From Gemmatimonadota bacterium (GTDB lineage: Bacteria > JBHIER01 > G020348925): 64,000 nt of DNA. Of the stretch, positions 885 through 18,997 are shown piece by piece. Below the pieces are notes generated by a model. That model had not been told where the DNA came from. It searched no databases and saw only the letters and a program-made list of their open reading frames with translations. Made by a program: the position numbers and the translations under genes. Positions within the stretch are counted from its first letter, which is position 1, and each line of letters begins with the position of its first letter. The stretch lies in NCBI GenBank assembly GCA_020348925.1, contig CP070758.1:2416874-2480873 (forward strand), given 5' to 3'.

Positions 885-1265
885 ATGAATATTAGGCAAA
901 CGAGACAAAGAGAGACGATTTTAGAAATTTTGAGGTCGACGCACTGTCACCCGACGGCGGACTGGGTTTACGAGCAGGCGCGGAAGATCATCCCGAACAT
1001 CAGCCTGGGTACGGTCTATCGCAATTTAAACTTTCTGGCCAAGCAAAATCAAGTCCTCCGCTTTGAACACGATCACGTCTGTCGGTACGATGGGTATACG
1101 GAGAACCATTATCACTTTGTCTGCACGGATTGTGGGAGGGTGTGCGATATTAACGTACCCATTGATACGACGTTAAACAGGAGGGTCGCACGGGGTTCGG
1201 GGTACTCCGTTTCCTCCCATCGAGCCATGTTCTTTGGATTGTGCTCGGAGTGTAAACGAAAATGA
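885..1265 (+). CDS. Fur/PerR-family metal-dependent transcriptional repressor
   Basis: A 126-residue protein with the Fur layout: an N-terminal winged helix (TRQRETILEIL, then PTADWVYEQAR and SLGTVYRNLNFL, the recognition helix) and a C-terminal metal/dimer domain. The latter has the HYHFVCTDCGRVCDI signature (His-rich sensory site plus first structural CxxC) and a second pair, CSEC, near the end, forming the structural zinc site. The family represses iron uptake (Fur) or peroxide-defence genes (PerR). PerR is favoured because the next 26 kb is a peroxide/superoxide defence island, but the PerR-specific Asp could not be settled by eye. It has its own promoter and a Fur box upstream. Confidence 0.9.
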   Translation: MNIRQTRQRETILEILRSTHCHPTADWVYEQARKIIPNISLGTVYRNLNFLAKQNQVLRFEHDHVCRYDGYTENHYHFVCTDCGRVCDINVPIDTTLNRRVARGSGYSVSSHRAMFFGLCSECKRK

Positions 1266-1434
1266 GGGTGATTGTGGGGGCGGGTTCGGTTGACAATGTT
1301 TTTGAAAAGGTTGAGAGGAGGTGATATACGAAAGGGAAGATCCAAAATCAAAAATCATAAATTCAAAACTCAAAATGTGTGAGAGAGTTGAAAAGGAGAA
1401 GAGTTAACAGGTTCCTTGAAAGGAGATGGAGGCG

Positions 1435-1665
1435 ATGGAAACATTGAAGCAGAGAGTTGAAGCGGCGTTGAATAAGGTACGGCCCGGATTGCAAGCCGAT
1501 GGTGGGGATGTGGAATTGGTGGATGTTGAAGAGGATGGCGTCGTAAAAGTGAGACTCACCGGAGCATGCGGTGGATGTCCCATGTCCCAGATGACCTTGA
1601 AGATGGGCATCGAAAAGGTTTTAAAACAGGAGGTGGCGGAAGTAAAAGAGGTTGTGTCTCTATAG
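1435..1665 (+). CDS. nfu: NifU C-terminal-domain (Nfu) iron-sulfur cluster scaffold protein
   Basis: A 76-residue single-domain Nfu protein. The hallmark is LTGACGGCPMSQMTLK, whose CxxC pair bridges a [4Fe-4S] cluster between two subunits for transfer to apoproteins. The N-terminal VRPGLQADGGDVELVDV is typical. I place the start at 1435 because aaggag at 1420-1425 is 9 nt upstream; the in-frame ATG at 1426 touches that site and is too close. Placement behind a Fur/PerR regulator suits a role in repairing or supplying clusters under oxidative stress. Confidence 0.88.
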   Translation: METLKQRVEAALNKVRPGLQADGGDVELVDVEEDGVVKVRLTGACGGCPMSQMTLKMGIEKVLKQEVAEVKEVVSL

Positions 1666-1854
1666 TCGGCTCTGATGTGTCCTTTCGCAGAAGTCCTGAA
1701 TTTATTAAAAAGTGACGAAGCGGTGTGAGGATTTATGCCTGTCGAGCGTGCGAGGAACTCATCAAGGAGTCTGTGCACCATACACCCGTAAAGGGCTCCA
1801 CTCCAGTTTTCATTTCTGTGATCAATGAGGTATTCGAAAGGAATGTGGGAGAAC

Positions 1855-2859
1855 ATGGAGAAAGAGATTGACGCTTTGAGGAATGAGGCCTCGGCTTTTA
1901 TGAGGTCGCAGGTGCTCCTCGTGGCCAACCAGTATGACCTCTTTACCAGAATAGAGGGGCGGAGATTGAAGGCAAGTGAGATCTCGGATATTTTGGGAAC
2001 CGATGGGAGAGCCACCCGCATGCTGCTCGATGCGTTATGCGGCATGAACTATTTGGAAAAGCACAACGGGAGGTATCGGAATTCCGAAGTCTCAAGCAAA
2101 CTCCTGGTTGCGAGTTCGCCTCATTACCAGGGGGACAGTTTGCGTCATCGGTACAGATTGTGGTCCAGTTGGTCGGCCCTGCGGAACGTGGTAAAAACAG
2201 GTGTGCCTCCGGAGGAGCCTCACGGCGAAGAGGTCGTGGCGGAAAAAGAACGCACCAGGGATTACATTCTGGCTATGGAAAATATCGGCCGGATCAGTGC
2301 TGACCGGTTGGCCGAGAACATTGATCTGACCGACGTGCAACTTCTTTTGGACCTTGGGGGCGGACCGGGGACCTATGCTGTGGCCTTCGCTCGGCAATAT
2401 CCTGGGTTGAGAGCGGTCGTGTATGACCTCCCTGAAGTCTGCCCTATTACGGAAGAACAGATTGCGCAGGAGGGATTTACCGACAGGGTGACGACGAAGG
2501 CCGGCGATTTTCTTGTGGACGAGCTTGGGAGCGGATACGACATGATTTTCGTCTCGAATGTTCTTCACATGTATTCCTTGGTCGAAATTCGGCATATTCT
2601 ATCCAAGTGCTTTCATGCCCTCAACCCCGACGGTCGCATCGCCGTGAAAGATTTCTTTCTGAATGAGGACAGATCAGGACCGCTCTTCTCTCAGCTTTTT
2701 GCCGTGAACATGCTGCTCAGAACGAGGGCTGGCGATACGTATACTTTTGGCCAGATTGAGGGAGCACTCACCGAGGCTGGATTGAGGAGGCTGCGAAGGG
2801 AGAAATGTACGGAGGAGTCCTGGTTGATTTTCGGTGAAAAAGAAAGGGGTTGTTCATGA
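1855..2859 (+). CDS. SAM-dependent O-methyltransferase, hydroxyindole/acetylserotonin type
   Basis: About 334 residues in two parts. An N-terminal winged-helix dimerisation domain (ALRNEASAFMRSQVLLVANQ, then LKASEISDILGTDGRATRML) is followed by a Rossmann methyltransferase domain whose SAM-binding loop reads LLDLGGGPGTYAVAFA, with the acidic VVYDLPEV strand after it. Domain order and motifs match the acetylserotonin/caffeate O-methyltransferase-like family, which acts on small aromatic or polyketide-like molecules; the substrate is unknown. In-frame ATGs at 1825 and 1843 are alternative starts; 1855 has gggag upstream and matches the family N-terminus. It overlaps trpS by ATGA. Confidence 0.8.
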   Translation: MEKEIDALRNEASAFMRSQVLLVANQYDLFTRIEGRRLKASEISDILGTDGRATRMLLDALCGMNYLEKHNGRYRNSEVSSKLLVASSPHYQGDSLRHRYRLWSSWSALRNVVKTGVPPEEPHGEEVVAEKERTRDYILAMENIGRISADRLAENIDLTDVQLLLDLGGGPGTYAVAFARQYPGLRAVVYDLPEVCPITEEQIAQEGFTDRVTTKAGDFLVDELGSGYDMIFVSNVLHMYSLVEIRHILSKCFHALNPDGRIAVKDFFLNEDRSGPLFSQLFAVNMLLRTRAGDTYTFGQIEGALTEAGLRRLRREKCTEESWLIFGEKERGCS

Positions 2860-3830
2860 AGCGTATCTTCAGTGGCATCCAGCCGTCCGGGGAAATTCAT
2901 ATCGGAAATTATGTCGGTGCTATCCAGAATTGGGTCAAACTGTTGGATTCATGCGATTCCATCTTCTGCATCGTCGATTACCATGCCATCACCGTCGAGT
3001 ACGATGTTTCCCGCATGCAAAGAAATATCCGAGAGGCGGCCATTGTCAATATCGCCTCGGGGTTGGATCCGAGTAAGTGTACGCTCTTCGTACAATCGAA
3101 GGTTCCAGAGCATACTGAGCTCACCTGGATATTCAACTGTGTTTCACCTTTGGGTGAGCTCATGCGCATGACCCAGTTCAAAGAGAAAGCAAAGCAGCAC
3201 TTGCGGAATGTCAATGTGGGATTGCTCGACTATCCGGTGCTTCAGGCTGCCGATATTCTTCTGTATAAGGCTGATGGCGTGCCAGTGGGAGAGGATCAGG
3301 TGCAGCATATCGAGTTCTCGAGAGAGGTCGCTCGAAAGTTCAATCACCGCTACGGTGAGACGTTTCCAGAGCCGCAGGCATTGCTGACCAAGAGTCCGCG
3401 GATCATGGGGCTCGACGGTAAAACGAAAATGTCAAAAAGCTTGAACAACTACATCGGTCTTCTCGAAGATGGGGATGTGATCTGGGAAAAATTGCGGACC
3501 GCCCTGACCGATGAAAATCGAAAACGACGGAACGATCCGGGGAATCCGGATATCTGTAATCTCTTTACCCTTCACCAGGCATTTTCAACCCCGGAGGAGA
3601 TCGAGCGCATAAACAGGGAATGCCGGACAGCGGAGATCGGCTGTGTTGCATGCAAAAAAAACCTGTTCAATAATATGATGGCCCATTTGGAGCCGATTCA
3701 GAAGCGAGCGAAGGAATTGACGAAGGATCAGACCTATGTCGATTCGGTGCTGGCTCAGGGCGCGAAGCGTTGCCAGGAGATCGCCGGGGAGGTCATGAGG
3801 GAGGTTCGAGAGGTTATCGGCCTGAAATGA
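2856..3830 (+). CDS. trpS: Tryptophanyl-tRNA synthetase
   Basis: About 324 residues, normal for bacterial TrpS. It attaches tryptophan to tRNA-Trp in the cytoplasm. Class I signatures are clear: SGIQPSGEIHIGNYVGAI (HIGH motif as HIGN) at the N-terminus and KTKMSKSLNNYI (KMSKS loop) in the middle. GVPVGEDQVQHIEF is a family hallmark. The start at 2856 is supported by agaaagggg just upstream. The start codon overlaps the methyltransferase stop as ATGA, indicating translational coupling. It is a housekeeping gene caught in the redox island. Confidence 0.96.
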   Translation: MKRIFSGIQPSGEIHIGNYVGAIQNWVKLLDSCDSIFCIVDYHAITVEYDVSRMQRNIREAAIVNIASGLDPSKCTLFVQSKVPEHTELTWIFNCVSPLGELMRMTQFKEKAKQHLRNVNVGLLDYPVLQAADILLYKADGVPVGEDQVQHIEFSREVARKFNHRYGETFPEPQALLTKSPRIMGLDGKTKMSKSLNNYIGLLEDGDVIWEKLRTALTDENRKRRNDPGNPDICNLFTLHQAFSTPEEIERINRECRTAEIGCVACKKNLFNNMMAHLEPIQKRAKELTKDQTYVDSVLAQGAKRCQEIAGEVMREVREVIGLK

Positions 3831-3877
3831 TGGACCGTGTATTCTGTGTTCAGGAATCAAGGAGAAAGGATTGCATT

Positions 3878-4405
3878 ATGGCGAAAGCTCCAGAAAAGAT
3901 TTACAGAGAGGCCTCGGGCAGAGTTTGGGAAACGATGGGAGCTTTGGAAGCTCTCGGGATTGCCATTTATAACGAACAAGCGGCTTACGATTTTTACCGT
4001 AACCTCGAACATACAATCGAGAACGAGAGCGGTAAAAATAAGTTCAAATTTCTGGCAGAGGATGAACAGCGACACCGCCGGCTATTAGAGGAGCAGTACG
4101 AAAAAGAGAGCGACGGTCAAAAATTCGTTTACGATTCGGGCCGGGCAAAGACGGTCGATGTCACTGTCGATAGTCAAGCGAGCGCCGTTGATGCCGTTGA
4201 TCTGGCCCTTGAGGCTGAGAAAGCCGCTCATGAGTTTTACAAACAGGCAGCCGAAAAGACAAACGATGAGGAAGGGAGACGCATGTTCGAGCGTCTGGCG
4301 GAGGATGAGGAGAACCATTACGAGACACTCCGCGCAGAACGAGAGGCACTCTTGGGCGGACCATACTGGTTCAGTGCGGACGAGCACAGGATGATGGAAA
4401 GTTAA
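3878..4405 (+). CDS. Rubrerythrin-like ferritin-superfamily diiron protein (no rubredoxin domain), paralog 1
   Basis: A 175-residue protein made of two helical half-sites. Half one has a Glu in IYNEQAAYDFY and the ExxH pair in FLAEDEQRHRRLLEE; half two has a Glu in LALEAEKAAHEFY and ExxH in LAEDEENHYETL. The E...ExxH...E...ExxH pattern supplies the six ligands of a rubrerythrin/ferritin-type diiron site. There is no C-terminal rubredoxin domain, so electrons must come from a separate carrier. The family reduces hydrogen peroxide or handles iron; the exact role here is inferred. The start at 3878 follows ggagaaagga. This is the first of eight such genes in the island. Confidence 0.85.
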   Translation: MAKAPEKIYREASGRVWETMGALEALGIAIYNEQAAYDFYRNLEHTIENESGKNKFKFLAEDEQRHRRLLEEQYEKESDGQKFVYDSGRAKTVDVTVDSQASAVDAVDLALEAEKAAHEFYKQAAEKTNDEEGRRMFERLAEDEENHYETLRAEREALLGGPYWFSADEHRMMES

Positions 4406-4442
4406 GATCTGGGTTCGTGTATCAAAACAGGAGGTTACGGGC

Positions 4443-4952
4443 ATGGCAGTGGATTCCGGTTTGACGTCATTAGAGGTTTTAGGCATCGCGATTCAGTCGG
4501 AGATTGAGGCGGCGAAACTTTACGAGAGGATGGAGAAGAGGGTTCGAAATATCGATCTGAAGGAGAAATTGGAATTCCTCAAGGGAGAGGAGGAGAAGCA
4601 TCGGTCGATCTTCGAAGATATCCACCGGAAGAGATATCCGGATGTGGAGCTGAAACTGCCAGAGAAATCGATGGTGCCCATGATGGACGTTGCTCTGACG
4701 AAAGAGATGACCCTTAAAGAGCTTTTCGAAGTGGCCATGAAGGCTGAAAAAATTTCGGAGGAATTTTATACGGATCTGGCGAGAAAATCGAAAGACGCAT
4801 CCGGTACTTCAATGCTCAACTATCTCAGCGGTATAGAACGGGGACATTACAATCTTCTCAAGAACGAATATGATATGGTGGTTACGTTTCCGGCCTATGC
4901 TGAGACGGAGGAGTTCTTGATGGGTGAGAGGCTGACGCACGTCGGACCATAG
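4443..4952 (+). CDS. Rubrerythrin-like ferritin-superfamily diiron protein, paralog 2
   Basis: 169 residues with the same two-half-site plan: Glu in IAIQSEIEAAKLYERM and ExxH in GEEEKHRSIFED, then Glu in AMKAEKISEEFYTDL and ExxH in GIERGHYNLL. No rubredoxin or CxxC metal site is present. aggagg lies just upstream. It is 37 bp after paralog 1 and 24 bp before the disulfide oxidoreductase, so the genes are probably co-transcribed. Likely a peroxide-reducing or iron-handling protein; the specific substrate is not visible. Confidence 0.83.
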   Translation: MAVDSGLTSLEVLGIAIQSEIEAAKLYERMEKRVRNIDLKEKLEFLKGEEEKHRSIFEDIHRKRYPDVELKLPEKSMVPMMDVALTKEMTLKELFEVAMKAEKISEEFYTDLARKSKDASGTSMLNYLSGIERGHYNLLKNEYDMVVTFPAYAETEEFLMGERLTHVGP

Positions 4953-4976
4953 TTGAGAAAGGGGGAACGTCAGAAA

Positions 4977-5639
4977 ATGGCATTTCTTCAGGATAAAGAC
5001 AAAAAGGTTATTCAGGATCGGCTTAAGGATCTGGTCGATCCTGTGAAATTGATCAATTTCACCCAGGAGTTGGAGTGCCAGTTCTGCCGGGAGACGAGGC
5101 AGCTTGTGACCGAGCTCGCTGCGCTGTCGGACAAGTTGGAATTGGAGGTCTACAATTTTCAGATCGACAAAGAGAAAGCGGACCAGTATAAGGTCGACAA
5201 GGTCCCGGCCATAGTGATCGAAGGGGCGAAGGACTATGGTGTGAGGTATTACGGGATACCCTCCGGATACGAGTTCGCATCTCTTCTGGAAACAATCCTG
5301 GCAATATCGCAGGGTGCATCGGGCCTGTCCGAGGAGAGCAAGGAAAAACTCCGTACGCTCGATCAAGAACTTCATATACAGGTCTTTGTCACACCCACCT
5401 GACCGTACTGTCCCTCGGCCGTAGTTACGGCTCACAAGCTGGCCATTGAAAGTGATTTCATTGTGGCTGATATGGTGGAAAGTACTGAATTTCCCCAACT
5501 GGCCATCAGATACAATGTGCGCGGTGTCCCTCGGATTGTCGTCAACGAGGAGACTCAGATTGAAGGCGCTTTGACGGAGCAAAACTTTGTGGACGAGATC
5601 CTGAAGGCCGCGCGGAAGAAGACTTCAAAAGAACAATAG
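4977..5639 (+). CDS. Protein disulfide oxidoreductase (double thioredoxin fold) with in-frame TGA, candidate selenoprotein
   Basis: Read through, the gene gives 220 residues with two thioredoxin/glutaredoxin folds, the PDO architecture. Fold one has C34-QF-C37 (FTQELECQFCRETR) and cis-Pro VPAIVIEG; fold two has VTPT-TGA-PYCPSAV and cis-Pro GVPRIVVNE. The TGA (5400-5402, codon 142) falls exactly where the family has the nucleophilic Cys of VTPTCPYCP, so it most likely encodes selenocysteine. The downstream frame stays open and conserved for 78 codons to TAG. A hairpin with GU in its loop lies 15-28 nt after the TGA. The alternative is a simple TGC-to-TGA nonsense change. aaaggggg precedes the ATG. 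The likely role is disulfide/peroxide redox chemistry in the cytoplasm. Confidence 0.8.
5413..5436 (+). promoter_or_regulatory. Candidate bacterial SECIS hairpin
   Basis: GCCGTAGTTACGGC at 5418-5431 is a perfect inverted repeat (GCCGT/ACGGC with loop AGTT; GCCGTA/TACGGC if the inner pair forms). The loop GU at 5424-5425 is 22-23 nt after the TGA. Bacterial SECIS elements are short hairpins inside the coding sequence just downstream of UGA with a conserved G/U in the apical loop, and this spacing fits. The lower stem is imperfect. Confidence 0.6.
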
Positions 5640-5671
5640 AGGAAAGGTATCACAGAGAGGTGAAAAGCAAA

Positions 5672-5758
5672 ATGAACTTCGTGGTCGTATTGGTAATTTT
5701 TCTGGCGTATGTGTTTCTCATGGGGTACGTTCTCCCCAAATTGGGCGTTTCTACCTGA
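5672..5758 (+). CDS. 28-residue single-pass membrane peptide
   Basis: A short ORF encoding a hydrophobic helix followed by a small polar tail (starts MNFVVVLVIFLAYVFL, ends YVLPKLGVST). agagaggtg lies about 10 nt upstream of the ATG. It sits between the candidate selenoprotein and rubrerythrin with 32 and 92 bp gaps, all on the same strand. I do not recognise a family. The sharp hydrophobic-segment/LPKLG boundary and good ribosome site make it more likely real than chance. It may be a small membrane subunit or regulator; no function is claimed. Confidence 0.5.
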   Translation: MNFVVVLVIFLAYVFLMGYVLPKLGVST

Positions 5759-5850
5759 ATATCAAATGTCTGCAGCGTTTCGGGGGAACGCGAAAATAAG
5801 ACCGATGATGAGAGAACATCACCGAACTTAGAGTAAGAGGAGGTTTCGTT

Positions 5851-6354
5851 GTGAAGAAAATGACGGAGCAAAATCTGAGAGCTGCTTTTGCGGGAGAAAG
5901 TCAGGCCCACATGCGGTATCAGATTTTTGCCGATAAGGCGGAAGAGGAAAGAAAGCCAAATGTGGCTCGGCTCTTCCGGGCCATCTCCTTCGCCGAGCGG
6001 GTTCATGACACGAACCACTTCAAGACCTTCGGCGATCTGGCCAACACGGCCTCCAATCTCCAGATGGCTATAGACGGAGAGACTTTTGAGGTCGATGAGA
6101 TGTATCCGGCCTACGACGCTGTGGCCACATTGCAGAATGAGAAGGGGGCCGAATCGAGCATTCGCTTCGCTTTGGAGGCAGAGAAGATCCACGCGGCCAT
6201 GTATCAAACGGCCAAGCAGGCCGTGGCAGCGGGCCAGGACGTGGATCTCGGCGCGGTTCAGATATGTGGAGTATGCGGCTACTCGACTGAGGGGAATGCC
6301 CCGGACACATGTCCGATCTGTGGTGCTCCGAAGGGGAAGTTTCGCAGTTTCTGA
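5851..6354 (+). CDS. rbr: Rubrerythrin
   Basis: 167 residues, classical rubrerythrin. The N-terminal four-helix diiron domain (LRAAFAGESQAHMRY, AERVHDTNHFK, then FALEAEKIHAAMY) is followed by a C-terminal rubredoxin domain with CGVCG and CPICGAPKGKF. It reduces hydrogen peroxide to water in the cytoplasm, taking electrons from NAD(P)H or rubredoxin. The GTG start at 5851 follows agaggaggt by 6 nt; an ATG at 5860 is the alternative. It is the only member of the local diiron set with its own rubredoxin domain. Confidence 0.95.
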   Translation: MKKMTEQNLRAAFAGESQAHMRYQIFADKAEEERKPNVARLFRAISFAERVHDTNHFKTFGDLANTASNLQMAIDGETFEVDEMYPAYDAVATLQNEKGAESSIRFALEAEKIHAAMYQTAKQAVAAGQDVDLGAVQICGVCGYSTEGNAPDTCPICGAPKGKFRSF

Positions 6355-6432
6355 GAAAGAAATCTCAACCTCTTGGGGCTCCGTCAGAGAACCGAACCAA
6401 AAGATGATGCCCAACGATCCGCTTTTTGAAGG

Positions 6433-7824
6433 GTGCAATCCATCGTGAGAACGTCCACATCGATCGCTGTTTTTTTTCTCGGGGCCGTCTCCCTTGCCCC
6501 GGTATTTGCCCAGGAGAGCGCGAGGGAAACGTATCCCTTTTTCCCGTCGTTGATCAATACTTCGTCTGGAAACCCGGTGGCCTCGAAACGATTTATGGAC
6601 CCGGCACTATGTCAGGGTTGTCACGGAGAGATCTTCGATCAATGGCAGGGATCGATGCATTCCTTTGCCTTTCCCGATCCGGTATTCCAGGCTCTGTGGA
6701 GACTGGCCTCTGAGGAGACGGGAGGTCTGACGGACATCCTCTGTGCCGGGTGCCACACGGCCATCGGCACGGTGAGCGAAGAGGTGGTCTTTGAGGGTGG
6801 CGAGTTTCGGGTCAGCGAGATCGCGCGAAAGGGGGTTCAGTGCGATCTGTGCCACAGTATCAGCGCCTCCAGCTTTTTGAAGACGCCCACGCATTTGCCG
6901 CAAAATGCCTCCATCATTGTCGATCCCGGAGTGGTGAAGCGGGGTCCTTACGATGACTCTGTGTCCCCTTTTCATGAATGCGCCTATTCAGAATTGCACA
7001 CAACGTCAGAATTTTGTGGGAATTGTCACAATGTTTTCCATCCGGTGACGAATTTCCACATTGAAAACACTTACAGTGAATGGAAATTTTCCGTGTATGC
7101 CCAGAAAGGTATTCAGTGTCAGGATTGCCACATGATGCCGGTGGAGAAAGCCATCGAAGTGGCTCGGACGCTCGAAAAGCCGAAAAATCCTGGGAAGGCT
7201 TCCATCATGGGACCGGAGCGGGATCAGGTCTATACCCATGAATTTGTTGGAGCAAATTATACGGTCACCTCACTCCTTGGCTCGGATCGGCATGCAGAGA
7301 TTGCCCGGGAACGGTTGAAGGGCGCAGCGGAAGTTGAAATTCTTGCGCCGGAGTCAGCGCAAAAGGGAGGTTTGGTCACAGTCAAGGTGAAAGTGACCAA
7401 TGTGGGGGCAGGTCACAATTTGCCGACGAGCTTGACGGAAGTGCGACAGATGTGGCTGGATGTCTCGGTTAAGGATGCTTCAGGAGTCGAAATATTCAGG
7501 TCCGGGGCTTTGGACGCTGCAGGAAATATCGACGAGGAAGCTGTGATATTCAATGCCCACGCAGTCACTCAGGATGGGCATCATACTGTGAGGCCCTGGG
7601 AGATTGCGCGGTTCGAGTACAATCGCACCATTCCCCCCAAGGGTTCGGCCAGGGAAAAATACAGCTTCCTAGTCCCCCACAACGCCCATGGACCATTGGC
7701 AGTTGAAGCTACCCTGCGATATCGCTCATATCCTCAATCGATGGCGGACATGTTGTTGGGGGATGAGGCGCCGGTGTTGCCGGTTGTGGACATGGCTCGA
7801 AAAGAGGTGCAGATCGTCATCTGA
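6433..7824 (+). CDS. Exported five-heme c-type cytochrome (cytochrome c554-like)
   Basis: 463 residues with an N-terminal signal peptide (SIAVFFLGAVSLAPVFAQ) and five CXXCH heme-binding motifs in the first half: CQGCH, CAGCH, CDLCH, CGNCH and CQDCH. The second half is a beta-rich domain (VTVKVKVTNVGAGHNLPT). The arrangement resembles multiheme cytochrome c554/octaheme-like periplasmic proteins that move electrons to nitrogen compounds, metals or peroxide; the acceptor is unknown. The start may be GTG 6433 or GTG 6445; gaaggg at 6428-6433 fits the latter better. Placing a periplasmic multiheme protein between rubrerythrin and catalase suggests a link between respiration and peroxide defence. 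Confidence 0.85.
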   Translation: MQSIVRTSTSIAVFFLGAVSLAPVFAQESARETYPFFPSLINTSSGNPVASKRFMDPALCQGCHGEIFDQWQGSMHSFAFPDPVFQALWRLASEETGGLTDILCAGCHTAIGTVSEEVVFEGGEFRVSEIARKGVQCDLCHSISASSFLKTPTHLPQNASIIVDPGVVKRGPYDDSVSPFHECAYSELHTTSEFCGNCHNVFHPVTNFHIENTYSEWKFSVYAQKGIQCQDCHMMPVEKAIEVARTLEKPKNPGKASIMGPERDQVYTHEFVGANYTVTSLLGSDRHAEIARERLKGAAEVEILAPESAQKGGLVTVKVKVTNVGAGHNLPTSLTEVRQMWLDVSVKDASGVEIFRSGALDAAGNIDEEAVIFNAHAVTQDGHHTVRPWEIARFEYNRTIPPKGSAREKYSFLVPHNAHGPLAVEATLRYRSYPQSMADMLLGDEAPVLPVVDMARKEVQIVI

Positions 7825-7876
7825 TAGGGTCAGGTAGTCAGAGACTGATAAACAGCCTGGGAGACCACTTTTGCTC

Positions 7877-7905
7877 TTGACACGAAAGGAATTTGTTCCT
7901 ACATT
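7877..7905 (+). promoter_or_regulatory. Possible promoter with palindrome in spacer
   Basis: TTGACA (7877-7882), 17 bp, TACATT (7900-7905, 4/6). The spacer contains the palindrome AGGAA-TTTG-TTCCT (7887-7900), placed where a repressor could block polymerase. Likely drives the catalase transcript with a ~410-nt leader. Confidence 0.4.
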
Positions 7906-7950
7906 ATTTCCGATCCCATGCAATTCATTCCCGCCAGGTGGGTGATTCAA

Positions 7951-8085
7951 ATGAACCTGAAGAGACAGCGCCGTATGCTTCAACGTTGTAAAGTGTTTGA
8001 CATGGAGACGGGGTATTGTCGGATGAAGGGAGGCTTCTCCAAACAGGAGAGTCCACACCTCAGGGCTGACAACCCTGCGAAATGA
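7951..8085 (+). CDS. Possible 44-residue Cys-containing small protein
   Basis: ATG to TGA open frame with aggtggg 8 nt upstream. The product is basic at the N-terminus and includes RCKVFDMETGYCRMKGGF, with two Cys (residues 13 and 23) and a Gly-rich turn that looks protein-like rather than random. It could be a small metal-binding or regulatory protein expressed ahead of catalase. No family recognised; conservation is untested, so a chance ORF in the leader remains possible. Confidence 0.35.
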   Translation: MNLKRQRRMLQRCKVFDMETGYCRMKGGFSKQESPHLRADNPAK

Positions 8086-8270
8086 CGCTGAAACGTACCA
8101 TTGTTTTGGGACGCGACATATGGGTGACGAGGGGAACGGACACATCGTTTTGAGATCGTCGTCCACTGTCACTTGTTCACGGAAGCGGTAATCAATCGTG
8201 ACATGACAGGTTCCTGTAAAGTGTGTCGCACCCGGAACAATGTGTATCCCTGGCAGGGGCAGAGGGAACC

Positions 8271-8309
8271 TTCACATCATGAAGCGGAGAGATGTTCCAT
8301 TGATGTGAA
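8271..8309 (+). promoter_or_regulatory. Inverted repeat just upstream of the catalase ribosome binding site
   Basis: TTCACATCA (8271-8279) and TGATGTGAA (8301-8309) are perfect 9-bp complementary arms with a 21-nt spacer. They end 2-3 nt before aaaggaggg of the catalase gene. A third partial copy, ttcacatg, spans the start codon and could pair competitively. This could be an operator or an mRNA hairpin controlling translation. Confidence 0.45.
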
Positions 8310-8324
8310 AAAAGGAGGGTTCAC

Positions 8325-9836
8325 ATGGCAAAGAAGAAAAAAAATCTGACGACCGCTTTTGGAATTCCGGTGGGTGATGACCAGAACAGCCAAACCGCCG
8401 GTGACCGAGGGCCGGTTCTGATGCAGGACGTTCACCTGCTGGAGAAGCTGGCCCATTTCGACCGAGAGCGCATCCCGGAACGCGTGGTGCATGCCAAGGG
8501 TGCTGGTGCGGGCGGTTATTTCGAGGTGACCGCCGACGTGACAAAGTATACCAAGGCCAAGTTCTTTTCCGACATCGGCAAGCGCACGGAGATCTTCGCC
8601 CGCTTTTCAACGGTGGGTGGAGAGAAGGGTTCTGCGGATGCCGCGCGCGATCCCAGGGGGTTCGCCGTCAAGTTTTATACCGAGGAGGGCAACTACGACT
8701 TTGTGGGCAACAACACGCCGGTGTTCTTCATTCGTGACCCGCTCAAGTTCCCCGACTTCATCCACACCCAGAAGCGGCACCCGGCCACAAATCTCCCGGA
8801 TCCGGATATGTTCTGGGATTTTCTGTCCCTCACCCCGGAATCGATCCACCAGGTGACCATCCTCTTCTCCGACCGGGGGACGCCTGCCACCTACCGCCAC
8901 ATGAACGGCTACTCCAGTCACACGTTCAAGTGGTACAACAAGAAAGGAGAGTCCTTCTGGGTCCAGTATCATTTCAAGACCGACCAGGGTATCAAGAACC
9001 TTACCCGGGAGGAGGCGACGCGCATCTCAGGGGAGGATCCGAATAACGCCACCCGGGACCTGTACGAGGCCATCGAGCGGGGCGAGTATCCCTCCTGGAC
9101 ACTCGAAATGCAGATCATGACGCAGGAGCAGGCAAAAGACTACCGTTTCGACATTTTTGACATCACTAAGGTCTGGCCTCATGGAGACGTTCCGCCCATC
9201 AAAGTGGGTCGTCTGGTACTGAATCGCAATCCGGTCAATTACTTCGCAGAAGTGGAGCAAGCCGCCTTCTGTCCGGGGAATCTGGTGCCGGGCATCGCCG
9301 CCTCGCCGGATAAGATGCTTCAGGCCCGGCTCTTCTCCTATCACGACACTCACATCCACCGTCTGGGACCCAACTATCACCTGCTTCCTGTGAACGCGCC
9401 CAAGAACGCGCCGGAGAGCAGTTACCAGCGTGACGGCTTCATGCGGACCGACGTCAACGGCGGCGGCGGACCCAATTACTGGCCGAATAGCTTCGGGGGA
9501 CCGGAACCAGACCCGGGTGCTCTGGAACCACCCTTCGAGGTCTCCGGACATGCGGCCCGTCATCCTTACACCCATCCCAACGACGATTTCGTCCAGGCCG
9601 GGGATCTGTATCACAAGGTGATGACGGACGAGGATCGCGATCACCTTGTAGGCAACATTGTGGATCACCTGGGTGGAGCGCAGAGGCGCATTCAAGTGCG
9701 TCAGACAGCCCTCTTCCATAAGGCCGACCCCGATTACGGTCGCCGCGTGGCCGAGGGATTGGGCCTGGACGTGAAGGAGGTCGAGCGTCTGGCCGAAATG
9801 TCCCAGGAGGACCGGGCTGAAACAACATCACAATAA
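8325..9836 (+). CDS. katA: Monofunctional heme catalase
   Basis: 503 residues, small-subunit (clade 3 size) catalase that dismutates hydrogen peroxide. The active-site His is in [18 protein letters not shown] (His56). The distal Asn region is [20 protein letters not shown]. The proximal heme Tyr motif is [18 protein letters not shown]. Codons here end in G/C much more often than in the flanking rubrerythrin genes, which suggests later acquisition. It has a perfect ribosome site and is followed 25 bp later by ferritin. A catalase beside rubrerythrin and superoxide reductase gives a high-capacity route for large peroxide loads. Confidence 0.97.
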
Positions 9837-9861
9837 GATTGATGTGGAAAGGAGGTTTGTT

Positions 9862-10380
9862 ATGTTGAGTAAAAAGATGGTGAAGGCGCTGAACGAACAG
9901 ATCAATAAGGAGATCTATTCGGCCTATCTGTACATGTCGATGTCGTCCTATAGCGACTCAATCGGATTGAAGGGCTTTGCCAACTGGTTCATGGTCCAGT
10001 ACCAGGAAGAGATGGAGCACGCCATGCGGTTCTACAATTACGTTCAGGAACAGGGTGAACAGGTAACGCTGATGGCTATCGACCAACCTGAAACGAAGTT
10101 TGCATCGCCGTTGGCCTTGTTTGAAAAGACTCTGGAGCATGAGAAGTACGTCACCAAACGGATCAACACATTGGTTGATCAGGCCATGAAGGAGAACGAT
10201 CATGCCACCCGGATTTTCCTCCAGTGGTTCGTGACCGAGCAGGTCGAAGAAGAAGCCAATGCCTCGGATATCATTGGGAAGTTGAAGCTTGTGGGGAAGG
10301 ACAGCAGTGGCTTGTTGATGGTGGACCAGGAGTTGGCTGCGAGGACGTTCACGCCCTCATTGGGGAAGGGGGAGGAGTGA
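9862..10380 (+). CDS. ftnA: Non-heme ferritin
   Basis: 172 residues, the usual length for bacterial FtnA, which forms a 24-subunit shell oxidising and storing iron. The ferroxidase residues lie in LNEQINKEIYSAYLYMSMS and WFMVQYQEEMEHAMRFYNYV, with the third-helix Glu in FVTEQVEEEAN. The start at 9862 follows aaaggagg. Co-location with catalase limits Fenton chemistry by removing both free iron and peroxide. Confidence 0.95.
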   Translation: MLSKKMVKALNEQINKEIYSAYLYMSMSSYSDSIGLKGFANWFMVQYQEEMEHAMRFYNYVQEQGEQVTLMAIDQPETKFASPLALFEKTLEHEKYVTKRINTLVDQAMKENDHATRIFLQWFVTEQVEEEANASDIIGKLKLVGKDSSGLLMVDQELAARTFTPSLGKGEE

Positions 10381-10436
10381 GGCGTCACTGCTCGTAAACT
10401 GAAATTCATGAATTCTACATTTTGAGGAGGTGTCCA

Positions 10437-10802
10437 ATGGCGAAATTTGGGGATATTCTCAATCCTCCTGAGAAAGAGGGGAAAGAGAAGCACGTGCCGG
10501 TGATCGAGGCTCCGTCTTCTGTGAAGGCAGGAGAGGCGTTTGATGTGACCGTCGTTGTCGGAAAGGAAGTGGCCCATCCCAACACCATCGAGCACCATAT
10601 CAAGTGGATTCAAATCTACGCTTCCATTGAAGGGCGGCCGAACAACCCTGTTCACGTCGCCACATTTGACGTCGGGCCCACTTTTGGAGATCCGAAAGTG
10701 ACGTTTCCCATGAAACTTGAAAACAGCGCCAGCATCTTTGCCTTAGAGTACTGCAACATTCATGGTGTATGGGAGAACTCAGTCGACATAACAGTTGAAT
10801 GA
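10437..10802 (+). CDS. sorA: Superoxide reductase, neelaredoxin type
   Basis: 121 residues, lacking the N-terminal desulforedoxin domain, so a 1Fe (class II) superoxide reductase. It reduces superoxide to peroxide without making oxygen, using electrons from rubredoxin. Seen: EKHVPVIEAP (the Glu-Lys active-site loop and first His), TIEHHIKWIQIY (equatorial His ligands) and CNIHGVWEN (axial Cys106 and His109). Strong aggagg just upstream. Its product, hydrogen peroxide, is handled by the catalase and rubrerythrins nearby. The missing desulforedoxin module occurs as a free gene at 15228. Confidence 0.95.
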   Translation: MAKFGDILNPPEKEGKEKHVPVIEAPSSVKAGEAFDVTVVVGKEVAHPNTIEHHIKWIQIYASIEGRPNNPVHVATFDVGPTFGDPKVTFPMKLENSASIFALEYCNIHGVWENSVDITVE

Positions 10803-10893
10803 GTCAGGTAACGGAGCGAAGAATTTTCGTGACGGTGTATCGAACTGACGGTTGGGAGCGGAACGCGCGACACACGGAAAGGAGAAACGAAGC

Positions 10894-11196
10894 ATGGCGG
10901 AGGAGGCAGTAAAGGTATCTCCAGAGGTATGCGCCTGGGTTGATGAGGACCATACAAAGATACATCTTGAGATATCTCTTCCAGGTGTGAAGAAAAAGGA
11001 TATAAAGCTCAAGATGCATGAGGACAGTTTTAACCTCACTGCACCAAGAACGGATTTCGAGTATGTTACCGCTTTGTCCTTCTGTTGCCCGGTAAGACCG
11101 GAAAAAGCGGAGGCGAGGTATGAGGACGGTCTTCTCAAAATTGAAATTCCGTTCAAGGATCCCATGGAGGATGTTGTCGAAATAGCAGTGACGTGA
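10894..11196 (+). CDS. Small heat-shock protein, Hsp20/alpha-crystallin-like
   Basis: 100 residues, essentially one alpha-crystallin/CS-type beta-sandwich. Recognisable stretches are IHLEISLPGVKKKDIKLKM, a hydrophobic core strand, and YEDGLLKIEIPF (the conserved GxLxIxIP-type motif). Such proteins hold unfolding clients under stress. It is shorter than typical Hsp20 because the N-terminal arm and C-terminal extension are minimal. The start at 10894 follows aaaggag. Confidence 0.8.
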   Translation: MAEEAVKVSPEVCAWVDEDHTKIHLEISLPGVKKKDIKLKMHEDSFNLTAPRTDFEYVTALSFCCPVRPEKAEARYEDGLLKIEIPFKDPMEDVVEIAVT

Positions 11197-11245
11197 GAGG
11201 GTGTCGATCGGTGAGATGATCTTCAGGTAGCAAAAGGCGAAAGGC

Positions 11246-12007
11246 ATGGAAAACAATGTTGGCCTGGCCTTACTACTCACGGCTGTGGCAGGCCTTTCCA
11301 CGACCATCGGAAGCGGACTGGGCTTAATTTTTCGAGAACCTGAGCGGCGCTTCATGGGGTTCACGTTGGGCTTCTCAGCAGGCGTAATGATCCTGGTCTC
11401 CTTTGTTGAATTGCTTCAGGGTAGCATCGAATCGATTGGATTTCTGTTCGCACATATGGGGTTCATCCTCGGGATGGGGGGATTCTTTCTTATCGATTTT
11501 ATTGTGCCCCACGATTACATCGGCCAGCACGATCATCCTCAGGGTCAGTCCGGTGACCGATTCATGCGGATTGGTTTGCTGGTCGCAGTAGGGATCGGGA
11601 TCCATAACTTTCCTGAAGGCATGGCCACTTTTACCGGTGCTCTCAAGGACATACGATTGGGAATTGCTCTTGCCGTGGCCATTGCCATACACAACATTCC
11701 CGAAGGGCTGGCAGTATCGGTTCCAGTCTATGCGGCCACCGGCAGCCGTAAAAAAGCGTTTCTCTGGTCCTTTTTATCCGGAGTGAGCGAGCCGGCGGGA
11801 GCGGCGTTGGCCGCACTTGTTCTCCTACCAATTTTGACGCCAATCCTCTTGGGTTGGATTCTTGCGGGTGTCGCAGGCGTAATGGTGGCGATATCACTCG
11901 ATGAGCTTATGCCGGCGGCCAAATCATTCGATACCGAGCATATTCCGATCCTTGGTGTCATTGTTGGCATGTCCGTAATGGCACTCAGCCTTTGGATGTT
12001 GAAGTGA
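11246..12007 (+). CDS. zupT: ZIP-family metal transporter (ZupT-like)
   Basis: 253 residues with about eight membrane helices. The two ZIP signature helices are GIGIHNFPEGMATF and AIAIHNIPEGLAVSVPV, whose His/Glu residues bind the transported divalent metal; a cytoplasmic His-rich loop (DYIGQHDHPQG) precedes them. ZupT-type proteins import zinc, iron or manganese. In this island, import of manganese or iron for the diiron proteins and regulator is plausible but inferred. Confidence 0.9.
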   Translation: MENNVGLALLLTAVAGLSTTIGSGLGLIFREPERRFMGFTLGFSAGVMILVSFVELLQGSIESIGFLFAHMGFILGMGGFFLIDFIVPHDYIGQHDHPQGQSGDRFMRIGLLVAVGIGIHNFPEGMATFTGALKDIRLGIALAVAIAIHNIPEGLAVSVPVYAATGSRKKAFLWSFLSGVSEPAGAALAALVLLPILTPILLGWILAGVAGVMVAISLDELMPAAKSFDTEHIPILGVIVGMSVMALSLWMLK

Positions 12008-12126
12008 AAACTGAAATACGGTCAAGGCACAAACAGAACGCACCATTCTGTTGAAGAGGAGGTGAAATCGTTGAGAGTAGAACTCCTGTAAGGCAGGGGT
12101 GACGCTCCTTCAAGGAGAACTTTCGA

Positions 12127-12897
12127 ATGAAGCGATATGTGCTGTTGTTATCGGTTTGGATCCTGGGAATAACTTTTTCTCTCGATGCCTGGGCTGCAGG
12201 TTTTAAAGTTTACGGATATAAGACTCGGAAACAGGGGGAAATCGAGCTCGTCTATTTCAACAACTTTTTTGCCAAGAGCGATCTGATGCAGTCGTTCTTC
12301 GGGAAAACAGTGGAGAAGAAAGGGCATCTTTCGCATTCCCTCGAGATCGAATACGGTTTTACGAATCGGTGGACTGTATCGGCCTATGTGGATTTCGAGC
12401 AACCGGAGGGTCAGGGAATACGGTATACCCGCATGCGAAGTGTCTTCTTCAGATATCGTTTTTTCGAGAAGGGGGATCGCTTCCTCGATGCGGCGATATA
12501 CTGTGAGTACTATCTTCCCAGGAAGAGGTACAAAAATGAAGAAGAGCTGGAAATCAAGCTGATCCTGGAGAAAGAGACCGGTCCGTTCACAATCGACCTC
12601 AATCCATCGGTCGAGAAAGCAACGAGTGGACCGGAGATAGGGGAGGGGCTCAAATTCAACTATGCATCAGGTGTCTATCACAATCTCTCACCGAAGGTGC
12701 GGGCCGGATTGGAATTTTACGGCAAAATCGGTGAGCTGGGTGCACCGGAAGAGATGCGTCGGCAACGTCACTGGATCTTCCCGGCGCTGAAGGTAAAACT
12801 TCCGAAGCGAATCGGTTGGGATATTGGTGCCGGTTTCGGATTGACCGAGGCAAGTGATGATGTCGTCCTAAAGAGCATTACCTCAATCGTGTTTTAG
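12127..12897 (+). CDS. Predicted outer-membrane beta-barrel protein
   Basis: 256 residues with a signal peptide (YVLLLSVWILGITF ending at DAWAA). The rest alternates hydrophobic and polar residues in amphipathic strands and ends in an aromatic residue (SITSIVF), the usual barrel-insertion signature. Motifs such as SLEIEYGFTNRWTVSAYVDF resemble copper-resistance/transporter-like barrels of unknown substrate. The adjacent ZIP transporter hints at metal movement, but this is inference only. Confidence 0.7.
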   Translation: MKRYVLLLSVWILGITFSLDAWAAGFKVYGYKTRKQGEIELVYFNNFFAKSDLMQSFFGKTVEKKGHLSHSLEIEYGFTNRWTVSAYVDFEQPEGQGIRYTRMRSVFFRYRFFEKGDRFLDAAIYCEYYLPRKRYKNEEELEIKLILEKETGPFTIDLNPSVEKATSGPEIGEGLKFNYASGVYHNLSPKVRAGLEFYGKIGELGAPEEMRRQRHWIFPALKVKLPKRIGWDIGAGFGLTEASDDVVLKSITSIVF

Positions 12898-12972
12898 CGG
12901 GAATGTCGTCTGATGCTTGGTTCGGTTTCTGCTCGTTCTTGAAAAGGTGTTTTTGACAACGAGGAGGTGTGT

Positions 12973-13446
12973 ATGTCTCATCATTATCCGAAAGTGGGCG
13001 AAAAGGCCCCGGATTTTGAACTCCCCGCCGTTGGGGACAAGAGGGTCAGATTGAGCAATTTCGCAGGGGAAAAAAACGTGATTCTCTCGTTCCATCCTCT
13101 GGCCTGGACCGGACTCTGCGCCGCCCAGATGCAGGATCTTGAAAAGAATATTGAGAAGTGGATTGAGACGGATACAGTTGCCCTGGGTGTCAGTGTCGAC
13201 AGTATTCCGACAAAGGATGCCTGGGCAGATTCGCTGGGGGTGACGCACGTTGAATTCCTCTCGGATTTTGAACCAAAGGGGGAGGTTGCTCAGATGTACG
13301 GCGTCTATCGCGAGAATGGTTTTAGCGAACGGGCCATTTTCGTCATCGACCGGGAAGGGACCATACGTTTTGCCAAAGTGTATCCGATCAAGGAGAAACC
13401 CGACCTGTCGGAGATCTTTCCGGTTTTAGAAACTCGGAAATCATAG
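12973..13446 (+). CDS. 1-Cys peroxiredoxin (AhpC/TSA family, AhpE/BCP-like)
   Basis: 157 residues with a thioredoxin-fold peroxiredoxin core. APDFELPAVGDKRVRL opens the fold. HPLAWTGLCAAQM contains the PxxxTxxC motif with peroxidatic Cys49; DREGTIRFAKVYP is the typical later strand. Cys49 is the only cysteine, so it works by a one-Cys mechanism needing an external thiol or disulfide reductase. The candidate selenocysteine oxidoreductase at 4977 is an obvious potential partner (inference). gaggagg precedes ATG 12973. Confidence 0.92.
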   Translation: MSHHYPKVGEKAPDFELPAVGDKRVRLSNFAGEKNVILSFHPLAWTGLCAAQMQDLEKNIEKWIETDTVALGVSVDSIPTKDAWADSLGVTHVEFLSDFEPKGEVAQMYGVYRENGFSERAIFVIDREGTIRFAKVYPIKEKPDLSEIFPVLETRKS

Positions 13447-13487
13447 ATTCGCCTTGGGGAATCATGTAACAGACAAGGAACAGTGAC

Positions 13488-14021
13488 ATGCGCGAGAAAA
13501 GATTGTCTCGAAGAGGTTTTGTGAAACAGGCAACTCTGGGTGCTGCGGCTCTGGGTGTTTCGGGGATGACTTGGACTGGAGAAAAAACAGCTCGGGTGTT
13601 TCCCGGAAAAATGGAGCCAACCGAAGTTGTTCGGCTCCTCAACCAGGACATTACGGGAGAGATCGACGCCATTCTCACTTACATGAGAAATGCATTCATC
13701 ATCCCCCAGTGCGAGGCACGTTGTGAGATGGAGGAGATCGGCAAGGATGAGATGAGGCACGTGGAATGGCTTTCGGGTTTGGTGACCGATTTCGGCGGAA
13801 TTCCGACCATGGAACACCACGAGCTTTCTTTTGGGGGGGATAGTCCTAGGGATTTTCTCAAGCGGGCGATTGCGCTGGAAAAAGGCGCCATTGCCCAGTA
13901 CAAAGATCATAGTGAACAGATCGATCACAGGGAAGTGGTAGAGTACTTGGAGGTCATCCTGTGGGAGGAGGAGAAGCATCTGAAGGAATTTGAGGAGCTC
14001 CTTGAGGATATGATGGAATAG
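13488..14021 (+). CDS. Tat-exported ferritin-like diiron protein
   Basis: 177 residues. The N-terminus has a perfect twin-arginine motif, LSRRGFVKQ, and a hydrophobic stretch (ATLGAAALGVSG), so the folded protein is probably exported with its metal in place. The mature part has two half-sites: Glu in GEIDAILTY with ExxH in GKDEMRHVEWL, and Glu in IALEKGAIAQY with ExxH in WEEEKHLKEFEEL. A periplasmic diiron peroxidase or iron-oxidising protein fits. It is the only exported member of the local diiron family. Confidence 0.83.
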   Translation: MREKRLSRRGFVKQATLGAAALGVSGMTWTGEKTARVFPGKMEPTEVVRLLNQDITGEIDAILTYMRNAFIIPQCEARCEMEEIGKDEMRHVEWLSGLVTDFGGIPTMEHHELSFGGDSPRDFLKRAIALEKGAIAQYKDHSEQIDHREVVEYLEVILWEEEKHLKEFEELLEDMME

Positions 14022-14119
14022 GCCTCCTCGTGCAAAAATGGTGTTTTCTATTGTACCAAGTTGTTATTTTAAACGGAGTATTGCGTTCTTCATAGTTGGT
14101 ATAGATCCAAAGGAGGTAC

Positions 14120-14602
14120 ATGATGGCCGTTCTGTTTTCTGCGCGTGAAATTGTCGAAGCCGCTGTTGAGAAGGAAAGGAAGAGAAAGGGGTTCTATTCG
14201 AATGTGTCGGAGTTGAGCGAAAATGAAGAAATGAAGGACCTGTTTCGATTCCTGACAGAAGAGGAACAGAGGCATGTTGAGTCCTTTCTCAACATCCGGG
14301 ATCGCCTCCCTGAAGCATCACACACCATTGAGTATTCTGAAGAAATGCAGGCCTATATGGACTCCGTCATTGACGATCGCCTCTATTCCGATATTGATTC
14401 AAAGGGTTTTGTCCAAAAAGCCATAGATGCCAAAAACGTTTTCCGTTTGGCCATCGGTTTTGAGAAAGATGCGATCCTGTACTTCAGAGAATTTCTGCCC
14501 TATCTGTCTGAATCGGACCGGAAGGTCGTGGAGGAACTGATTGAACAGGAAAAAGGCCATATTCGGAGGCTCTCAGATATGAAGAAGCGGATGGCTGAAT
14601 AG
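14120..14602 (+). CDS. Rubrerythrin-like diiron protein, paralog 4
   Basis: 160 residues with the double half-site layout: Glu in AAVEKERKRKGFY and ExxH in LTEEEQRHVESF, then Glu in AIGFEKDAILYF and ExxH in IEQEKGHIRRL. No rubredoxin domain. caaaggagg precedes the ATG pair at 14120/14123. The first half is more diverged than in its neighbours. Closest in pattern to the 15905 protein, suggesting one of several local duplications. Confidence 0.8.
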   Translation: MMAVLFSAREIVEAAVEKERKRKGFYSNVSELSENEEMKDLFRFLTEEEQRHVESFLNIRDRLPEASHTIEYSEEMQAYMDSVIDDRLYSDIDSKGFVQKAIDAKNVFRLAIGFEKDAILYFREFLPYLSESDRKVVEELIEQEKGHIRRLSDMKKRMAE

Positions 14603-14622
14603 GATTAAAGGAGGATGGTAGC

Positions 14623-15159
14623 ATGGGAGAAACTGTGGGATGCCCGACAGAAATATTGGAGTATGCCCTCACACTGGAGAAAGATGGCTACGACTTCTAT
14701 TGCAGCGCCAGCGAGAAGGTTGCGAATCCTATAGGAAAAAAGATGCTGGCGTGGTTGGCCAAAGAGGAAACAGAGCATATTAAGACGCTGACAAAGGCCC
14801 TCAAAAGTATGCAGGAGGAGGGGAAGTTGGCCTGCTCGGAGGAGGAGCTCGAGAGGGCCGATACATTCAGATTTCGAACGATGTTCAGCCAAGCCAAGGA
14901 GAAGGTCAAGGCCCTCGTCCCAGCAGATGCGGATGATCTCAAAGCCCTGGAAATTGCCATGGAAATGGAAAACAAAGGGTACACCTTTTATAAAGATTCG
15001 GTGAAAGAGGTTGATGATCCTGAAGGAAAAGCTCTTCTTGAATCGTTGGCACAGGATGAATCTGACCACTACGATGCGCTTCAAAACACCTATACCTATC
15101 TGAAAACGCCTGATCTCTGGTTCGCCTGGGAGGAGGGGCATATGTACGAGGCCGGATAA
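14623..15159 (+). CDS. Rubrerythrin-like diiron protein, paralog 5
   Basis: 178 residues. Half-sites: Glu in ALTLEKDGYDFY with ExxH in KEETEHIKTL, and Glu in AMEMENKGYTFY with ExxH in QDESDHYDALQ. A linker of ~40 charged residues separates them. The C-terminal LWFAWEEGHMYEAG resembles the tail of the 3878 protein (PYWFSADEHRMMES), so the two may share ancestry. Only 20 bp separate it from the preceding gene. Confidence 0.8.
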   Translation: MGETVGCPTEILEYALTLEKDGYDFYCSASEKVANPIGKKMLAWLAKEETEHIKTLTKALKSMQEEGKLACSEEELERADTFRFRTMFSQAKEKVKALVPADADDLKALEIAMEMENKGYTFYKDSVKEVDDPEGKALLESLAQDESDHYDALQNTYTYLKTPDLWFAWEEGHMYEAG

Positions 15160-15227
15160 GAAACAAGAAAAAGATCTCCGAGGTTTCCGAGACTTCGGAC
15201 GTCTGATGATGAAAGGAGGTGATTTTC

Positions 15228-15344
15228 ATGGCGGAGCAAGGGAAAACCTATGTATGTAACATCTGTGGACAGGAAGTCACTGTCACAAAAGCAGGCGTGG
15301 GGACGCTCGTCTGTTGCAACAAGCCGATGGAAGTGAACGAGTGA
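15228..15344 (+). CDS. Desulforedoxin (Fe(SCys)4 mini-protein)
   Basis: 38 residues, matching free-standing desulforedoxin. Four cysteines occur as VCNICGQ and LVCCNKPM, the CxxC...CC pattern that binds one iron in a distorted tetrahedral site. The same module is the N-terminal domain of 2Fe superoxide reductases; here it is encoded separately from the 1Fe superoxide reductase at 10437. Strong aaaggaggt upstream of ATG 15228. Probable electron donor within the island. Confidence 0.92.
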   Translation: MAEQGKTYVCNICGQEVTVTKAGVGTLVCCNKPMEVNE

Positions 15345-15413
15345 AAGAAATCGTGATATGGACAGCGCTCTTTTTTTGAGCAGACATTCGTGTCTATCTG
15401 AACGGAGGTGACA

Positions 15414-15866
15414 ATGGAGCACAAGGAATTTCAGGACGTGTTGACATTTGCCATTGAAAAGGAAGAGGAAGCGGCCGCTTTTTATCAGGAAGCGAGCCGG
15501 AAAGCCGAAAAGTCTCACATGAAGGAGGCTTTTCTGAGTATGGCGGAAGAAGAACAGAAACACAAGGAACTGCTCACGAATCTCGATGTGGAAAAAGTTG
15601 CCGAGAAAAAAATCGAGAGTGTCGCGGATTTGAAGATCTCCGATTATCTTGTGGATGTAAAGTACAGCCCTGATATGGAGTATCAGGATGTATTGATTCT
15701 GGCCATGAAACGGGAGAAGAAGGCCTTTCAGCTCTATACGAACATTGCGGACCGGACGGACGACACTGACATACAAAAGCTGTTTCAGGTTCTGGCCCAG
15801 GAGGAGGCCAAGCACAAGCTGAAGCTGGAGACCGAATACGATGAACATGTCATGGAGGGCTATTAA
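15414..15866 (+). CDS. Rubrerythrin-like diiron protein, paralog 6
   Basis: 150 residues, the most compact two-half-site member. Glu in FAIEKEEEAAAFY with ExxH in AEEEQKHKELL, and Glu in AMKREKKAFQLY with ExxH in AQEEAKHKLKLE. No rubredoxin domain and no Cys, so electrons must come from elsewhere. Start ATG 15414 is preceded by ggagg; the upstream in-frame GTG at 15408 overlaps that site. Confidence 0.83.
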   Translation: MEHKEFQDVLTFAIEKEEEAAAFYQEASRKAEKSHMKEAFLSMAEEEQKHKELLTNLDVEKVAEKKIESVADLKISDYLVDVKYSPDMEYQDVLILAMKREKKAFQLYTNIADRTDDTDIQKLFQVLAQEEAKHKLKLETEYDEHVMEGY

Positions 15867-15904
15867 TCGGCCGGATGATGCGTGATACATAGGAGGGAGT
15901 CAAC

Positions 15905-16399
15905 ATGACGATCTATTGGTCCGGGGAAGAGATCCTCGAAATGGCCGTTCAGATAGAAAAGAATGGTGTGGATTTCTACCTGGGACTGGCCGAGTCGGCG
16001 AAAGATGATAACATGAGAGGACTGATGCAATACCTGGCCGAAGAGGAAAAGAAGCACATGGCCATCTTTCGGAAATTGTCCGGTGTGTCTGACCAAGAGC
16101 ACCTGAAAAACCTGTACGAGCTTCAGTATGGTGAGGAAGGGCGTCTCTACCTCAAAGCATTGGCCGACACGAAGATTTTTGCTGATTCCAACGAAGCGGC
16201 GCACTGGGCCAGGGGGGCGGAAAATCCCTCAGAGGCCCTGGGGACAGCGATCGATCTGGAGAAGGATTCTATCCTTTTCTATCAGGAAATGCGGAATTTC
16301 GTGCGTGCCGATGACCGGAACCTCGTTGATGAGATCATCAACGAAGAAAAAAAGCACATTCAGACGTTGGCCACGTTGAAAAAGGAATGTCTTTCATAG
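15905..16399 (+). CDS. Rubrerythrin-like diiron protein, paralog 7
   Basis: 164 residues. Half-sites: Glu in AVQIEKNGVDFY with ExxH in AEEEKKHMAIF, and Glu in AIDLEKDSILFYQEM with ExxH in NEEKKHIQTLATL. The middle segment (EEGRLYLKALADTKIF) matches the 14120 protein in position and style. aggaggg precedes the ATG. Function as for the other members: peroxide reduction or iron oxidation, inferred. Confidence 0.82.
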   Translation: MTIYWSGEEILEMAVQIEKNGVDFYLGLAESAKDDNMRGLMQYLAEEEKKHMAIFRKLSGVSDQEHLKNLYELQYGEEGRLYLKALADTKIFADSNEAAHWARGAENPSEALGTAIDLEKDSILFYQEMRNFVRADDRNLVDEIINEEKKHIQTLATLKKECLS

Positions 16400-16529
16400 G
16401 GAGAGTCTTTAAGATGAAAGGAGTATTTCAATATCGTCTCTCACCGCTTCTCCCTCTTTCCGAGTTTTGAATGTCATTTTTGAACGAGGCGATCTCATTT
16501 CAACACAGTTCGGTCTTGGAGATAGAAAC

Positions 16530-17531: not shown

Positions 17532-17570
17532 ACCAACCGTGAAGTGGCACAGGAATTGGAGGTATACGGA

Positions 17571-18770: not shown

Positions 18771-18821
18771 TGATCGTGAATTGCACTGAATAGGCGATTT
18801 GGAGAGGAGGTGAGAGAATAA

Positions 18822-18986
18822 ATGGAAAAATGGCAATGTATCGTGTGTGGTTACGTGTATGATCCTGAGAAGGGTGATCCGGACAACGGAGTCAATCCCG
18901 GAACGTCTTTTGCGGATGTACCCGACGATTGGATCTGCCCGGAATGTGGAGCGCCGAAGGATCAGTTTGAAAAAATGAGCGAATAA
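18822..18986 (+). CDS. rub: Rubredoxin
   Basis: 54 residues with the two CxxCG knuckles [14 protein letters not shown] and [12 protein letters not shown] that hold one iron. It shuttles single electrons from NADH:rubredoxin oxidoreductase (36509) to the flavodiiron protein directly upstream and to superoxide reductase and rubrerythrins. ggagaggagg lies upstream. Confidence 0.97.
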
Positions 18987-18997
18987 GGAGGACCTGG

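Follow-up and report, generated by a model that had tools for sequence, protein, structure and literature searches.

A TIGR02187 protein disulfide oxidoreductase with a predicted selenocysteine in a rubrerythrin-rich region of a Gemmatimonadota genome

The window, the 64,000-nucleotide stretch of DNA analysed here, contains a gene for a protein disulfide oxidoreductase (PDO) whose reading frame is crossed by an in-frame TGA. This raises the question of whether the codon is a genuine stop, an error in the sequence or a codon for selenocysteine (Sec), and what the protein would do in the last case.

The gene, its family and the Sec machinery of the genome

The features of the gene are as follows.

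4977-5639, plus strand: predicted Sec-containing PDO, 220 aa when read through, with two thioredoxin-fold domains (TIGR02187)
5400-5402, plus strand: in-frame TGA, predicted Sec codon 142, with a Cys/Sec pair in the same column at 24 other loci
5417-5432, plus strand: SECIS-like hairpin of 6 bp with the loop AGUU, the loop G lying 22 nt past the UGA

The first-pass annotation had described the TGA as replacing the first Cys of a second CPYC motif, in a frame otherwise intact up to a TAG 78 codons later, and translation bears out both points. The frame comprises 141 residues, the TGA at 5400-5402 as codon 142, 78 sense codons and a TAG at 5637-5639. The first motif, CQFC, occupies residues 34-37, the TGA turns the second into UPYC (residues 142-145), and the cis-proline P185 lies within VPRI. 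When 12 homologues were aligned, the motif cysteines (with Sec drawn as C), the VP at 184-185 with its cis-proline and several surrounding residues were invariant. Standard gene calling would cut the protein at residue 141, and the annotation of this gene is therefore corrected here. The read-through product reaches 295.8 bits against the NCBIfam family TIGR02187 (short name PDO_seleno_TRX; cut-off 185), with residues 6-211 aligned to positions 2-209 of the 209-position profile. By this sequence measure it is a member of the family.

The first-pass annotation had made its reading depend on the presence of sel genes and tRNA-Sec in the genome. The genome is a single contig of 5.04 Mb, and selA (598.9 bits), selB (396.8 bits), selD (378.2 bits, with a TGA of its own) and tRNA-Sec (65.8 bits, anticodon TCA) were all found, so that, judged by homology, the Sec machinery is complete.

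L064 4489-9632 (G000:C1 about 2516490-2521630), minus strand: selA-selB-selD cluster, ~37 kb beyond the window
L155 (G000:C1:4230726-4231484): fdhA-like formate dehydrogenase alpha gene with an in-frame TGA, RI-U-HSATVAALAESFGRGAMTN, and an 8-bp hairpin downstream

The in-frame TGA of SelD lies in the motif GUASKL and is followed by a strong hairpin, CTGATGCAC-GTT-GTGCGTCAG. That of the fdhA-like gene is at the typical Sec site of formate dehydrogenase, and this gene is likely the third selenoprotein of the genome.

Electron donor and candidate clients

In the proposed mechanism, UGA 142 would be decoded as Sec by SelB and tRNA-Sec, aided by the hairpin just downstream. The UPYC site of the C-terminal thioredoxin-fold domain would then provide the nucleophile for thiol/disulfide exchange, and Cys145 would serve as the resolving residue. 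In the redox direction that we infer, the PDO would probably be reduced by a thioredoxin reductase (TrxR; gene G000:C1:2117453-2118370) and would hand electrons on to disulfide or peroxidase substrates. Taken as a whole, this account of a TIGR02187 selenoprotein is considered highly probable. What is known of the family suggests a dithiol or selenol-disulfide exchanger fed by TrxR. TrxR homologues adjoin the PDO gene in 21 Cys-form loci, and no TrxR gene was found beside the PDO in any Sec-form locus examined, so the donor is assigned from the Cys-form relatives. The TrxR gene located elsewhere in the genome would be the likelier electron donor.

The genes closest to the PDO gene suggest another set of partners, and the relevant ones are listed here.

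3878-4405, plus strand: rubrerythrin-like diiron protein, upstream of the PDO gene (PF02915)
4443-4952, plus strand: rubrerythrin-like diiron protein, directly upstream of the PDO gene (PF02915)
5851-6354, plus strand: rubrerythrin with a C-terminal rubredoxin-like domain, downstream of the PDO gene (PF02915, PF21349)
12967-13446, plus strand: AhpC/TSA peroxiredoxin with a TGLC motif, candidate client of the PDO (PF00578)

These genes form part of a dense oxidative-stress island (885-19495 of the window) that holds a Fur-family regulator, at least seven rubrerythrin-like or ferritin-like diiron proteins, catalase, ferritin, desulfoferrodoxin, peroxiredoxin and a flavodiiron protein. The number of rubrerythrin paralogues within 20 kb is unusually high. 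The interval between the PDO gene and the downstream rubrerythrin also contains a small ORF (5672-5758) that would encode a hydrophobic peptide of 28 residues, MNFVVVLVIFLAYVFLMGYVLPKLGVST, and is preceded by a purine-rich stretch. The peroxiredoxin has no evident resolving Cys and is therefore probably of the 1-Cys type. It corresponds to the known Sec peroxiredoxins with a TxxU motif, but with Cys in place of Sec.

Such surroundings invite a refinement that is compatible with Sec, namely that the PDO is dedicated to the local island and directly reduces the 1-Cys peroxiredoxin or the rubrerythrins. The position of the gene between rubrerythrin genes speaks for it, as do the catalase, superoxide reductase, ferritin, Fur-family regulator, flavodiiron protein and peroxiredoxin genes within ~20 kb. 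However, the neighbourhood of PDO genes is not conserved elsewhere, and rubrerythrins usually receive their electrons from rubredoxin and its reductase. Among the 24 other Sec-form loci, many of which had short flanks of only 1.5 kb, homologues of the island proteins near the PDO gave any match in just three, one of them to TrpS only. Because island homologues almost never lie beside the PDO in other genomes, the proposed clients amount to a guess, and dedication to the island is possible but doubtful. Thus, where the first-pass annotation had proposed a reductase of the 1-Cys peroxiredoxin or of the diiron peroxidases, the nearby genes are indeed present, but their association with the PDO hardly ever recurs. 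The narrower idea that the Sec-PDO is co-transcribed with the rubrerythrins and is the selenium-dependent reductant reserved for them in an isolated bacterial lineage is improbable.

Sec, Cys and the hairpin among homologues

The exchanger reading itself depends on codon 142 being Sec, and here the homologues are informative. In all of the following comparisons the host phylum is represented by the window's own genome only. As the first-pass annotation had suggested, the read-through protein was compared with PDO homologues at codon 142, and these carry either Cys or Sec there, with Sec at the 24 other loci. In a sample of 386 genomes spread over the domain, a TGA occurs in 15 PDO genes, that of the window among them, with one TGA in each and all at the same alignment column. 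Ten of the 80 named loci likewise have the Sec form, with TGA at that column, in Zixibacteria, Acidobacteriota, Chloroflexi/Anaerolineae and others. SelB scored above its cut-off in every one of the 15 Sec-PDO genomes, compared with 32 of the 71 PDO genomes overall (hypergeometric p = 6e-7, relatedness not corrected).

If instead codon 142 were really TGC or TGT and the gene encoded an ordinary Cys PDO, the TGA would be a sequencing or assembly error. Single-base draft errors yield exactly such Cys-to-TGA changes, and the Cys form is the majority of the family (100 of the 125 homologues in a quick tree, the other 25 being Sec). However, a TGA stands at this column in the 24 other loci as well, which come from many phyla, the TGA forms of the 71-genome test are confined to genomes with selB, and the host has the full Sec machinery. 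An error at this codon is therefore very unlikely. Equally unlikely is a genuine stop that leaves a pseudogene or a truncated 141-residue protein: the standard bacterial code does read TGA as a stop, but the homologues pair Sec with Cys at this column, the frame stays intact, and mean identity to 124 homologues is 0.505 after the TGA against 0.521 before it, indicating similar constraint on the downstream half.

The functional Sec-PDO put forward in the first-pass annotation is thus strongly supported as a prediction from the recurrence of the TGA column, homology and the Sec machinery of the genome, and from these we infer that Sec is actually inserted. The known range of the family's Sec form thereby grows by one further bacterial lineage, itself poorly sampled. 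In addition, the tree of 125 homologues needs about 13 switches between Sec and Cys, a count that is approximate because many branches are weak, and at least five are forced by well-supported branches. The family is therefore well suited to studying how Sec and Cys repeatedly replace each other.

The hairpin contributes less. The GCCGT-AGTT-ACGGC element reported in the first-pass annotation is present at 5418-5431 (GCCGT 5418-5422, AGTT 5423-5426, ACGGC 5427-5431), with the loop G at 5424 and one additional G-U pair, 5417-5432. Its placement is consistent with a bacterial SECIS, in which a small apical loop contains a guanosine (PMC1088965). Nevertheless, when the peptide was recoded synonymously, 16% of 5000 variants gave an equal or better bSECIS-like hairpin, and 14% of 2000 an equal or lower local energy. 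The folding z-score was +0.9 over a 44-nt stretch and reached -3.2 for a hand-picked 21-nt core only. A scan of 5300-5800 matched no Rfam family.

Across the family, bSECIS-like hairpins were counted at a stem score of at least 5 with the loop G 16-37 nt from the UGA, a rule based on the spacing seen in bacterial SECIS elements. They occurred in 13 of 15 Sec PDO genes versus 8 of 32 Cys PDO genes (p = 9e-5). Among the 15 Sec genes, no covariation above shuffles was found for any single common hairpin register, because the registers differ between genes. Several relatives have a hairpin centred on the GT of the Val codon, for example CGAGCCG-GTC-CGGCTCG, and that of the window lies ~2-3 nt further downstream. 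Given the frequency of matching recodings and the lack of covariation, the hairpin is consistent with a SECIS but carries no evidential weight alone.

Comparison with known relatives

The nearest solved structures, 1a8l and 1j08, align over nearly the whole length of the protein, with their CPYC opposite UPYC. We take 1a8l to be the PDO of Pyrococcus furiosus, 1j08 a Pyrococcus PDO, and 2ywm and 2ayt the PDO of Aquifex. These proteins share with that of the window the whole-length alignment, the two thioredoxin-fold domains and the C-terminal CPYC site, but their nucleophile is Cys whereas that of the window is predicted to be Sec. A second relative is TIGR03143 (AhpF_homolog), a fusion of TrxR and PDO halves. 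Its PDO half aligns with the protein of the window at 111.7 bits, under the TIGR03143 cut-off, and in the window's genome the two halves are separate genes.

The closest known system is the Sec form of TIGR02187 itself. With its UxxC motif, it is listed as a predicted selenoprotein family in two reviews under the name 'Homolog of AhpF N-terminal domain (Grx-like domain protein)', with ABB15282.1 as the example (PMC13188914, PMC9312934). Under the label 'Homolog of AhpF, amino-terminal domain', a 2006 survey had already reported two such selenoproteins, from Carboxydothermus hydrogenoformans and Symbiobacterium thermophilum (PMC1794560), and the Sec form is also present in Asgard archaea according to a 2026 review (PMC13188914). 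The Sec-PDO of the window is therefore not a new family, and the novelty implied by the first-pass annotation was mistaken. It is a genuine but ordinary new representative of a selenoprotein family catalogued by 2006. Overall, it has in common with the catalogued Sec form its family membership by curated score, the UxxC motif, the Sec/Cys pair and the predicted Sec decoding, and it differs in its isolated host lineage and in the position of its gene inside a rubrerythrin-rich peroxide island.
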